Source: an uncultured Pelagibacteraceae bacterium
GTDB lineage: Bacteria > Pseudomonadota > Alphaproteobacteria > Pelagibacterales > Pelagibacteraceae
DNA length: 64,000 nt
Reading direction: 5' to 3'
Assembly: GCA_902619835.1 (NCBI GenBank)
Contig: CACNFS010000001.1
Location: 62,001 to 126,000 of the forward strand
A model generated the notes under the pieces. That model was not told where the DNA came from and made no database searches. It saw only the letters and a list, made by a program, of their open reading frames with translations. Position 1 is the first letter of the stretch. The number at the start of each line of letters is the position of its first letter. Shown piece after piece: positions 47,278 to 56,976 of the stretch. The position numbers were made by a program, and so were the translations under genes.

Positions 47278-47955
47278 CTACCCAAAAGATTTTAAAAAAG
47301 GCTGCAATTTTGTAGCCTTTTTTTTTGCAATAAATAAACACGCATTTGAACTTAGTATCAAACCATCCTTAAGAACTCTTAAATTATTATCAGCCAAAGT
47401 TTTGCCTGTAGAAGTTATATCTGAAATGATTTCAGAAGAGCCTATAAATGGATAAGTTTCAGTAGCACCAAGACTAGGAATTAATTTATATTGGGTTACT
47501 CCTTTAGAAATCAAAAAATCATTAGTAAGGTTAGGATATTTAGTAGCCACTCTTAGTCTGGTATTTCTTTTGGATCTTATATCAAATGATACCTCTTCAA
47601 GATCAGCAATAGTCTGAACATCTATCCAATCATTAGGCACTGCGATAACTAGGTTGGCATTACCAAAATCAAGTTTTTTCTGAATATTTATTTTTCTCTG
47701 TAAATTTTTATCAGACTCTTTTAAGAGATCTAATCCAGATATACCTAAGTCTAAAGTGCCGTCTCCTAATCTTTGAATAATTTCTTTGGCGTGAAGAAAA
47801 ATAATTTTGATCTTGGATTCATTTTCAATAGTCCCAAAATAATTTCTTTCTTTTTCACTTTGCAGAATCTTATGTCCTGTATCATTAAAAAATGATATTG
47901 CTTTATCTTTCAATCGTCCTTTACTTGGAATACCTATTGTAATTAAGTCTTTCAT
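47278..47955 (-). CDS. hisG: ATP phosphoribosyltransferase, short form
   Basis: ITIGIPSKGRLKDKA, GDGTLDLGISGLDLL, DITSTGKTLADNNLRVL; next to hisZ. Confidence 0.95.
   Translation of the reverse strand: MKDLITIGIPSKGRLKDKAISFFNDTGHKILQSEKERNYFGTIENESKIKIIFLHAKEIIQRLGDGTLDLGISGLDLLKESDKNLQRKINIQKKLDFGNANLVIAVPNDWIDVQTIADLEEVSFDIRSKRNTRLRVATKYPNLTNDFLISKGVTQYKLIPSLGATETYPFIGSSEIISDITSTGKTLADNNLRVLKDGLILSSNACLFIAKKKATKLQPFLKSFG
47294..47328. terminator. Bidirectional intrinsic terminator between groEL and hisG, overlapping hisG 3' coding end
   Basis: AAGGCTGCAA-TT-TTGTAGCCTT stem followed by T9 on + strand; T6 run on - strand side. Confidence 0.8.
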
Positions 47956-48989
47956 ATATTTTTTAAATTGATTGCAGCTCCAACAGCCGGGGTATTCTTT
48001 TTAGCTCCTAAACTTTTAAGTAAATCATCATAACGACCTCCTCTAGCAATTTCTTCTTTATCTGATAATACTTCAAACACAATTCCAGTATAATATTCTA
48101 CATCTCTTCCAAAATTAGCAATGAATATTATATCTTGATTAAGTTTTTTTAAATTTAAAATGGATTTAAATTCTTTGAATACATTTTTTTTGAGATTATT
48201 TTTTTTAGCAAAATCTAACAATCTTTTGTCAAGTTCTGAAAGTTTACAGTTTATTTTTAAAAAGGATTTAATAATTTTAACAATTTTCTTCCCATCGGCA
48301 AAAGATCTTGGATCTTGGATCTTTTTATCAAATCTTTTTAATATTTCTGAAACTGATCTGCCAGCTATTATTTCATTTTGATTTTTTTTTTTCATTTCAT
48401 AAAATCTTTTTTTATCAGCATCAAAAGTTATTGCGTCAATATCGGTATTTTTTTCCAATCTTTTCAAAAGCTCCTCGAAATAACTTGGTCTCCAAAAATG
48501 TCTAATAAGTCTTAATTTCCATCTTTCAGGCATATCCAAAGCATTAACTAAACTTTTAAATAAACCAATATCACTAACCTTGATTAAAATTTTTTTTCTT
48601 TTTATCTTCTTTGCTGAACTTAAAATTGTACTTATTACTTTAAAATCATCCTGAATTTGATTTTTTGAACCCAGAATTTCAATCCCCAATTGGTCATAGA
48701 TAACATTTGTGCCTTTATTGCCTGATCTTCTATATGCTTGTCCAGTATAATAAATTTTTGAGGCAGATTTTTTTTGTAAGAAACTTATACATGAAGCTAC
48801 AGTTAAATCTGGTCTTAAACACATTGTTTTTCCATCTTCTCCGTCAAAAGTAAGCATTGAACTTCTAAACTTTTCTCCTGATCTCTCAATAATATAATCT
48901 GAGTCTAAAAGCGTATCGGGTTCCGATAAAACAAAACCATTACTTTTAAAATTTTTTATTATAGTTTCAGATAATTTTTTTGATTTCAT
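47952..48989 (-). CDS. hisZ: ATP phosphoribosyltransferase regulatory subunit (HisRS paralogue)
   Basis: LRPDLTVASCISFL, IYYTGQAYRRS, YYTGIVFEV, ARGGRYDDLLKSLG; no complete HisRS catalytic set; next to hisG. Confidence 0.88.
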   Translation of the reverse strand: MKSKKLSETIIKNFKSNGFVLSEPDTLLDSDYIIERSGEKFRSSMLTFDGEDGKTMCLRPDLTVASCISFLQKKSASKIYYTGQAYRRSGNKGTNVIYDQLGIEILGSKNQIQDDFKVISTILSSAKKIKRKKILIKVSDIGLFKSLVNALDMPERWKLRLIRHFWRPSYFEELLKRLEKNTDIDAITFDADKKRFYEMKKKNQNEIIAGRSVSEILKRFDKKIQDPRSFADGKKIVKIIKSFLKINCKLSELDKRLLDFAKKNNLKKNVFKEFKSILNLKKLNQDIIFIANFGRDVEYYTGIVFEVLSDKEEIARGGRYDDLLKSLGAKKNTPAVGAAINLKNI

Positions 48990-50301
48990 TTACTAATTCA
49001 TTTACTTCAATTGATAGTTCTTTACCGCTACTTAAATTTCTTAAGGTTGGTTTGCCTGATTTAATCTCATCCTCACCATACAAAATAACAGCTGGAGATT
49101 TTATTTTGTTCGCATATTCCATCTGTTTTTTTAATTTACTCTCTCCTGGATAGATTTCTGCGCTGATACCAGCTTTTCTTAATATCGTTTGTACTTTTAT
49201 GTACTCTTTCATGGAATTTTTATCAAATACACAAATCACAATTGGTTTTGATTGTTTTATTTTAAACTCCTTTTTTTGCATCAATGCATAAACCAATCGA
49301 TCTAATCCTATTGATATACCTGTGGCAGGAGCATCAAATTTGCCAAAATTATTTACTAAATTATCGTATCTACCTCCACCGCCTATAGAGCCAAATTGAA
49401 TTACTTGCCCTTTATTATTTTTTATATCAAACTTTAAATTTACTTCGAAAATTACTCCAGTGTAATATTCCAGACCTCTTATAATTGACGGATCAAATTC
49501 AAAATTACTGAAATTATAATTTTTAAAAATTGTTAATATCTCTAATAGATCTTCTGTCTCGGGTGATTTTTTCTTAAGTGTTTCCTCTATTATTTCAATA
49601 TCCTTAGATTTTAAATTAGCACCTTTTGTAAAATCTCCAGATTTATCTTTTCTACCAGCGCCTAGCAGTTCTTTTACTCCATTCCAGCCTAGCCTATCAA
49701 TTTTATCTAAAGCTCTTAAGGCAGTAAGTTTTTGCTGATTTTCATTTACATTTATTTTTTTAAATAATTCTTCAGTTATTTTTCGAGATGAAATCTTTAT
49801 TATGTATTCTGATTTAGTGAGGTTACATTTTTCAAGAATTTCTGAAATCATAACACATAGCTCAGCATCTGCTTGTAAACTTTTTGTTCCAACAAAATCA
49901 GCATCGAATTGTAAAAATTCTCTGAATCTACCAGGTCCTGGTTTTTCGTTTCTCCAAACAGTTCCAAGTTGATATCTTTTAAATGGCTTTGGAATTTCTA
50001 AGTAATTTTTTGCTACATACCTAGCTAGAGGTGCTGTAAGATCGTATCGTAAGGATAACCATTTATTTTCATCTTTAAATGAAAAAACACCTTCATCTGG
50101 TCTTTCCTTATCTGGTAAAAATTTTCCTATACTATCTGAATACTCAAAGCTTGGTGTTTCAAGGTATTGAAAACCATACTTGATCATAACTTCTTTAATA
50201 TTAGAAATTATAAAATCACGCACGAGTAATTCTTTTTCTTGCCTATCTACAAACCCTAATGGAAGTTCTTTAGAAGGGTTATTCTTTTTTTCTTTTGTCA
50301 T
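48967..50301 (-). CDS. hisS: Histidyl-tRNA synthetase
   Basis: RYDLTAPLARYVA, motif 2 RYQLGTVWRNEKPGPGRFREFLQFDAD, GGGGRYDNLV. Start set to ATG 50301 (MTKEKKNNP), because the track's N-terminus is antisense-free tRNA sequence. Confidence 0.94.
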   Translation of the reverse strand: MTKEKKNNPSKELPLGFVDRQEKELLVRDFIISNIKEVMIKYGFQYLETPSFEYSDSIGKFLPDKERPDEGVFSFKDENKWLSLRYDLTAPLARYVAKNYLEIPKPFKRYQLGTVWRNEKPGPGRFREFLQFDADFVGTKSLQADAELCVMISEILEKCNLTKSEYIIKISSRKITEELFKKINVNENQQKLTALRALDKIDRLGWNGVKELLGAGRKDKSGDFTKGANLKSKDIEIIEETLKKKSPETEDLLEILTIFKNYNFSNFEFDPSIIRGLEYYTGVIFEVNLKFDIKNNKGQVIQFGSIGGGGRYDNLVNNFGKFDAPATGISIGLDRLVYALMQKKEFKIKQSKPIVICVFDKNSMKEYIKVQTILRKAGISAEIYPGESKLKKQMEYANKIKSPAVILYGEDEIKSGKPTLRNLSSGKELSIEVNELVNEIKKII

Positions 50302-50305
50302 TTTT

Positions 50306-50382
50306 TGGTACAGCAGGGTGGATTCGAACCACCGACCCCTAGTTCCACAAACTAGTGCTCTAACCAACTGAGCTACTGCTGC
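50306..50382 (-). tRNA. tRNA-His (GTG), CCA encoded
   Basis: Full cloverleaf: GCAGCAG-TA-GCTC..GAGC-A-CTAGT-TTGTGGA-ACTAG-GGGTC-GGTGG-TTCGAAT-CCACC-CTGCTGT-A-CCA. Confidence 0.97.
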
Positions 50383-50429
50383 ATCCCTGTTATTTTTATC
50401 TTAATTTTAATTAAATTTATATATTTTTG

Positions 50430-50472: not shown

Positions 50473-50622
50473 TGATCTGATTGTTGAATTGATTCTATAT
50501 AATCTAACCATAATAACTTTTTAGAAAAAAAATGTGACTTTTTCAAGGTGAATTAACGGGACAATAAAAATAGATTAGACTAAAGTTAATGTCCCGATAA
50601 TCAGTGATTTTGGAAATTTAGA

Positions 50623-56873: not shown

Positions 56874-56879
56874 TTTTTT

Positions 56880-56976
56880 AAGAGGCAGGCAACAACCTGA
56901 ATAATTTTCACTACGGCTGCTTCTTTTCAGACCTGACCGGGTTTATGAAACATCCACCTGATGCCAACCTCAATAT
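56880..56976 (-). ncRNA. ffs: Signal recognition particle RNA (4.5S, bacterial small type)
   Basis: - strand GGTCAGGTCTGAAAAGAAGCAGCC matches the SRP helix 8 core (consensus GGTCAGGTCCGGAAGGAAGCAGCC); terminal GAGG..CCTC pairing; ffs-dnaX-ybaB-recR synteny. Confidence 0.92.

Follow-up and report, generated by a model that had tools for sequence, protein, structure and literature searches.

How is a gene translated when the folded body of a tRNA ends only a few nucleotides before its start codon? The question is raised by a window of 64,000 nucleotides from an uncultured Pelagibacteraceae bacterium (assembly GCA_902619835.1, contig CACNFS010000001.1, positions 62,001 to 126,000), in which the gene of tRNA-His is directly followed by hisS, encoding the enzyme that charges this tRNA. 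From the letters of the window alone it had been proposed that the tRNA is used as the 5' leader of hisS, and that its maturation could be coupled with the expression of the histidine genes. Both parts of this proposal were examined regarding the locus itself, its relatives and the other tRNA genes of the genome.

Organization of the locus

The following features were assigned, all of them on the minus strand (positions are those of the window).

50391..50400 (-): weak -10-like stretch GATAAAAATA, just 5' of tRNA-His (sequence)
50306..50382 (-): tRNA-His, anticodon GTG, 77 nt (ARAGORN; Rfam RF00005, 71.9 bits)
50306-50308 (-): encoded CCA of tRNA-His (sequence)
50302..50305 (-): AAAA spacer, the entire gap between CCA and start codon (sequence)
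48967..50301 (-): hisS, histidine--tRNA ligase, 444 aa, start ATG 50301
47952..48989 (-): hisZ, ATP phosphoribosyltransferase regulatory subunit (profile matches and position)
47278..47955 (-): hisG, ATP phosphoribosyltransferase (TIGR00070, 178.6 bits, cut-off 75.75)

On the minus strand the junction reads CTGCTGTACCA-AAAA-ATGACAAAAG. Only AAAA separates the encoded CCA from the ATG at 50301, as the sequence-only reading had described. The adjacency of both genes therefore stands, whereas the distance of 5 nt given in its title was an off-by-one error; the true gap is 4 nt. The downstream position of hisZ and hisG was likewise confirmed, with frames overlapping by 23 nt (3' end of hisS and 5' end of hisZ) and by 4 nt (hisZ and hisG). 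In the profile search hisS matched TIGR00442 with 371 bits (cut-off 286.75), the alignment beginning at residue 14. For hisZ, 280.6 bits were obtained with NF008953 and 118.8 bits with TIGR00443, both below the respective cut-offs.

The tRNA has the pair G1.U72, A73 (at 50309) and no templated G-1 (50383 is a T); by A73 and the lack of a templated G-1 it falls into the RRCH alphaproteobacterial type. Among the 28 tRNAs found in this roughly 80%-complete genome it is the sole tRNA for histidine. It is also, as had been assumed, the sole RNA detected upstream of the hisS start. A T-box leader was not found at hisS, and Rfam at gathering threshold gave only tRNA and SRP RNA within the window. The latter, a bacterial small SRP RNA, is located at 56878-56972 (-) (RF00169, 55.5 bits).

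Scanning of the window revealed neither a terminator nor a convincing promoter between tRNA-His and hisS. We tentatively take GATAAAAATA as the promoter of a tRNA-hisS transcript; the consensus promoter scan did not pick it up 5' of the tRNA. A TATAAA hexamer 10-13 nt 5' of tRNA-His is present in 24 of 52 sampled relatives, while the window has a weaker form only. Because of this upstream hexamer and the lack of signals between the genes, a single tRNA-hisS transcript would be the natural reading. Further upstream, between a cold-shock-like gene and the promoter region of the tRNA, an inverted repeat with a long loop (CGGGACA...TGTCCCG, 50556-50596) was observed.

Start codon and Shine-Dalgarno use

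Downstream of ATG 50301, a start-like codon next occurs in frame at codon 27 (GTG), and then at codon 39 (ATG). Both were rejected, as either would truncate the conserved N-terminus of HisRS. Upstream, the frame stays open across tRNA-His up to TTG 50367. This codon inside the tRNA was rejected too: with a gap of 3, 4 or 5 nt in the relatives, the frame through the tRNA is not conserved. Since the downstream codons would shorten the protein, ATG 50301 is the only credible start and is taken as that of hisS, in agreement with the earlier assignment. Like the spacing, this start codon is conserved in the relatives.

No Shine-Dalgarno (SD) core was found 4-16 nt before this codon, in CTGCTGTACCAAAAA. 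The absence itself had been correctly recognized, but it is no sign of a special coupling. SD cores precede only 8 of the 63 predicted genes in the window, compared with a background of 7%, and initiation without SD is the norm in this genome. The genes groES and groEL are among these eight.

Conservation of the spacing

Searching 397 genomes of the order yielded a hisS match in 361. The region 5' of hisS was read in 112 genomes of the same family, spanning nine genera, and about 250 matched genomes were left unread. The 112 were picked by HisRS similarity, together with a divergent set, and include many incomplete assemblies from single cells or metagenomes. In 107 of these 112 genomes, which are kin and not independent of each other, the gap is 3-5 nt long. 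Conservation of the spacing across SAR11, suggested earlier as a check, was thus found. In detail, gaps of 3 nt (three genomes), 4 nt (82), 5 nt (22), 23 nt (two), 29 nt (two) and 60 nt (one) were counted. The short gaps of the 107 genomes consist of A to 91%; a few read AACA, GAAA, AATTA or AAACA. The short gap is kept across eight types of tRNA-His body and with HisRS down to about 42% identity. In a second collection all 80 named records had 4 nt (77) or 3 nt (three); they are all near relatives of the window's genome, and some of them are also among the 112. The nearest named ones are uncultured Pelagibacteraceae single-cell genomes and 'Candidatus Pelagibacter ubique HIMB058'.

Could such spacing be a product of gene packing only, in which intergenic DNA was lost and tRNA and mRNA lie side by side without functional coupling? 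Genes are generally packed in this genome, and similar junctions occur before unrelated genes (see below). However, passive loss permits any length of zero or more, and larger gaps are tolerated in five genomes; even so, 107 of the 112 remain at 3-5 nt with 91% A. The narrow distribution suggests a constraint on the junction, an argument weakened by the shared ancestry of the sampled genomes. We consider packing by itself unlikely.

All five exceptions belong to one genus (g3) and contain a small hairpin in the gap. In four of them, with gaps of 23-29 nt (L167, L168, L169 and L170), a hairpin of 7-8 bp directly follows the CCA, and the 23-nt version contains GGAGG. The hairpin-bearing gaps of 23-29 nt are possibly an alternative leader design.

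The short tRNA-His/hisS junction was absent from the eight genomes of the sister family f2. There, the nearest ACCA 5' of hisS, at 17-398 nt, is not a tRNA end; where tRNA-His could be located, it lies about 1.4-2.5 kb 5' of hisS, the two being separated by a gene of some 400 codons on the other strand. Because of this gene between tRNA-His and hisS in f2, the loss of intervening DNA would be the simplest origin of the abutment in SAR11. Among 288 genomes of the class, SAR11 included, tRNA-His is located near an ATG in 33, counting any ATG and not specifically that of hisS; by our estimate this is no more than expected by chance for 13 ATG positions.

Diversity of tRNA-His and exchange of hisS

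In contrast to the constant junction, the tRNA in front of it is hypervariable in genus g3 (hisS loci L153-L172), with bodies of 74-77 nt and eukaryote-like D arms. Among them are types of 75 nt having a D arm such as GTGTAATGGTTAGCAC; a type of 74 nt, which was missed by ARAGORN, has the T loop AGCGTAA. G1.U72 is common to all types. A73 was found in all types of family f1 except that of G101, which has G73 and reads GCCA. The one type with G73 (L171) also has a reduced D arm.

Compared with all tRNAs of five other genomes, the odd types reach no more than 57-64% identity, and for this reason an origin by remoulding of the cell's own tRNAs was rejected. In contrast, the remaining tRNAs of G003, a g3 genome, share a median of about 86% identity with the same isoacceptor in G001. 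A phage origin was set aside, as type F gave no match in viral contigs or phages and type C only weak, partial matches of 77% to phage tRNA-Gln. A search by pattern detected no conventional tRNA-His in twelve g3 genomes with odd types, although the pattern can miss variants, such as that of G001. The odd type is thus probably the only His tRNA of these twelve genomes.

In a tree of HisZ and HisG, g3 forms one clade. In the HisRS tree it is split into several lineages, one of which includes the genus of the window, and hisS has been exchanged between SAR11 genera. The sister genomes G003 and G048 share 83% nucleotide identity in hisS, whereas their tRNAs are unrelated (58%); both have the AAAA gap. 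Conversely, the type B tRNA precedes, with 100% identity, three HisRS types whose proteins differ by half. Co-transfer of tRNA and hisS as a locked cassette was rejected on these grounds. It follows from these mismatches that tRNA body and hisS were each replaced while the junction survived; tRNA-His bodies and hisS alleles have been exchanged independently within one genus, with the junction fixed.

The junction at other tRNA genes

Is the junction peculiar to histidine? Nine of the 28 tRNAs in the genome of the window have, within 10 nt of their end, the ATG of a frame with 60 codons or more:

tRNA-Gly: pterin-4a-carbinolamine dehydratase
tRNA-His: hisS
tRNA-Pro: NDUS4
tRNA-Arg: epimerase
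tRNA-Met: TypA-like GTPase, at 2 nt
tRNA-Gln: polyA-polymerase/CCA-adding-type enzyme
tRNA-Glu: 2-hydroxyacid dehydrogenase
tRNA-Leu: NAD kinase
second tRNA-Leu: AMP-binding enzyme

Two complete genomes of other SAR11 genera have 7 such junctions at 31 tRNAs (G003, tRNA-His counted) and 8 at 30, giving 24 of 89 tRNAs for the three genomes pooled (loci L129, L133, L135, L138, L140, L146, L147 and L151 in the genome of the window, L213-L272 in G003 and G001). Outside SAR11, three of 27 tRNAs were found in the sister family, all with 9 nt, and none of 30 in an alphaproteobacterium of 4.2 Mb. From a random point of the window, the ATG of a frame with 60 or more codons is reached within 0-10 nt in 3.4% of cases. 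Compared with this rate, nine of 28 corresponds to P of about 2e-7; together with the spacing at hisS (107 of 112 and 80 of 80) this excludes chance as the reason for the frequency of the junction.

The short tRNA/ATG junction is consequently not specific to histidine. The special coupling of tRNA-His maturation to the histidine genes, as proposed in the sequence-only reading, was not borne out, since about a quarter of the tRNAs share a junction of 1-10 nt before unrelated genes. This genome-wide class weakens the case for a histidine-specific circuit, and a dedicated histidine-regulatory loop is unsupported.

A related possibility is a feedback operator, where HisRS would bind the uncleaved tRNA-His on its own mRNA and block translation. 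In E. coli, threonyl-tRNA synthetase blocks translation at the thrS leader. At hisS the encoded enzyme would indeed have its own substrate as leader, and the cognate adjacency is retained across nine genera. Against this, the same junction precedes many genes that do not encode synthetases, and the tRNA-His/hisS case thus requires no regulatory explanation. Such feedback is regarded as very unlikely.

Proposed processing of the transcript

We consider it rather likely that the locus is a streamlined tRNA-hisS-hisZ-hisG operon, in which 3' processing of the tRNA by RNase E releases a near-leaderless hisS mRNA. Genome streamlining would have deleted the DNA once parting tRNA-His from hisS. The four genes would be transcribed as a single unit from a promoter just 5' of the tRNA, and the hisS mRNA would be bounded upstream by the 3' end of the tRNA. 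On the transcript the folded tRNA would end 8 nt from the AUG (ACCA and 4 nt), which should hinder normal loading of the 30S subunit. The A-rich spacer would be cleaved by an endonuclease, most probably RNase E. One and the same cut would mature the tRNA and expose a near-leaderless, A-rich start with a leader of 0-4 nt, translated without SD. This cut would be needed before hisS could be translated. The same design would be realized at about a quarter of the SAR11 tRNA genes, the histidine case being one member.

The model is favoured by the constant short gap before changing tRNA bodies and HisRS, by the similar junctions at other tRNA genes, by the rarity of SD cores in the window and by the SD-like motif seen where the gap is long (tRNA-Gly to tuf). 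Folding of the window sequence is consistent with this course: the cloverleaf forms, the AUG is unpaired, and ACCA and 4 nt lie between acceptor stem and AUG. In six of seven folded examples the tRNA folds and the AUG is mostly unpaired; in one the AUG is paired. A member of the RNase E family was detected above cut-off in all 12 SAR11 genomes searched with profiles. RNase Z was above its curated cut-off in none of the 12; only weak metallo-hydrolase matches below the cut-off were obtained, which could be real enzymes. RNase E of E. coli gains direct access to tRNA precursors where single-stranded RNA flanks the folded tRNA (PMC3985628). For tRNAs with an encoded CCA in P. acnes, cleavage takes place a few nucleotides downstream (PMC3848588). 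By analogy with these two cases, the A-rich spacer is a plausible RNase E site. For recruitment by an SD, a leader of less than 10 nt is regarded as insufficient (PMC3848588). It is plausible that tRNA processing leaves an essentially leaderless hisS mRNA. Besides the fold with a paired AUG and the RNase Z-like matches below cut-off, two further points count against the processing model: RNase E could also cut A-rich codons near the AUG and destroy the message, and the presumed promoter of the window is a poor fit to the consensus.

Alternatively, hisS could be translated on a transcript that has not been processed. The tRNA would then serve as a structured 5' leader, melted or tolerated by the ribosome, and each transcript would give either tRNA or mRNA. 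The lack of a recognizable separate promoter would agree with this, and so would the loading of 30S subunits at A-rich starts without SD, which is common in this genome. The mRNA channel of the ribosome, however, requires single-stranded RNA near the AUG, and only about 8 nt lie between the acceptor stem and this codon; RNase P and RNase E should, moreover, rapidly process such precursors. As the 30S subunit should not easily fit the folded stem, cleavage after CCA probably precedes translation, and translation of the intact precursor seems quite improbable.

A promoter within the tRNA gene could instead drive a separate leaderless hisS mRNA starting at or near 50301. Some bacteria make widespread use of leaderless transcription (PMC3848588), but at hisS the distance of a -10 element falls into the DNA of the acceptor stem, which varies by tRNA type with only about GTACCA in common, and a sigma-70 scan gave no site there. 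With no conserved site, the internal promoter was rejected and is given hardly any probability.

Extending the preferred model of tRNA processing to SAR11 as a whole is more tentative. RNase E cuts in A-rich spacers of 3-8 nt would then mature tRNAs and license translation without SD, with selection holding tRNA-His and hisS at 3-5 nt despite foreign tRNA bodies and synthetases. This generalization is possible, and we hold it at less than even confidence.

Comparison with known systems

The closest parallel comes from animal mitochondria, in the tRNA punctuation model (Ojala, Montoya and Attardi 1981, as cited in PMC10941002). As in mitochondria, SAR11 tRNA genes abut coding sequences without SD, tRNA-His at a distance of 4 nt in the window and of 3-5 nt in 107 of the 112 genomes, and tRNA excision would set the 5' ends of almost leaderless mRNAs. 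In contrast to mitochondria, only about a quarter of the SAR11 tRNAs are concerned, and a spacer of a few A-rich nucleotides is present. RNase Z, which cuts the tRNA 3' end in mitochondria, was above cut-off in none of the 12 SAR11 genomes, whereas RNase E is present. For this reason the tRNA-His/hisS junction would work like mitochondrial punctuation but is not classed with it.

Joint transcripts of tRNA and mRNA are known from bacteria, for example E. coli secG-leuU and operons of the tRNA-tufB type. They also carry both RNAs on one transcript, and SAR11 tRNA-Gly followed by tuf, with a long gap of 31-40 nt and an SD-like GAGG/GAGAGG, resembles them. As a rule their leaders are longer and include an SD, whereas hisS has 4 nt and none. 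Actinobacterial leaderless mRNAs (PMC3848588, PMC4681348) share with hisS the lack of an SD and a start codon less than 10 nt from the 5' end, which the 4 nt between CCA and ATG would allow. Their 5' ends are transcription starts, while that of hisS would result from tRNA processing.

With A73 and no templated G-1, the SAR11 tRNA-His resembles that of the alphaproteobacterial A73 tRNA-His/HisRS pair. The identity rules of this pair are reportedly described by Wang 2007 and by Ardell and Andersson 2006. At the loop presumed to correspond to the published site, the window sequence is RNEKPGPGRFREF. The A73 trait was already known for SAR11 (Amrine 2014, PMC3937112); in contrast to the present analysis, the searched part of that text concerns identity rules and contains neither the gene junction nor the diversity of tRNA bodies. 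A literature search limited to open-licence papers found none describing a class of SAR11 tRNA/CDS junctions.

Implications

Few bacterial groups are as abundant as SAR11. The fixed junction before very different tRNA-His bodies provides a natural series for studies of tRNA identity. If the proposed processing is true, the SAR11 junctions would make it testable how an SD-poor cell starts translation. If excision indeed sets the mRNA starts at a quarter of the tRNA genes, it would be a bacterial counterpart of the mitochondrial rule.
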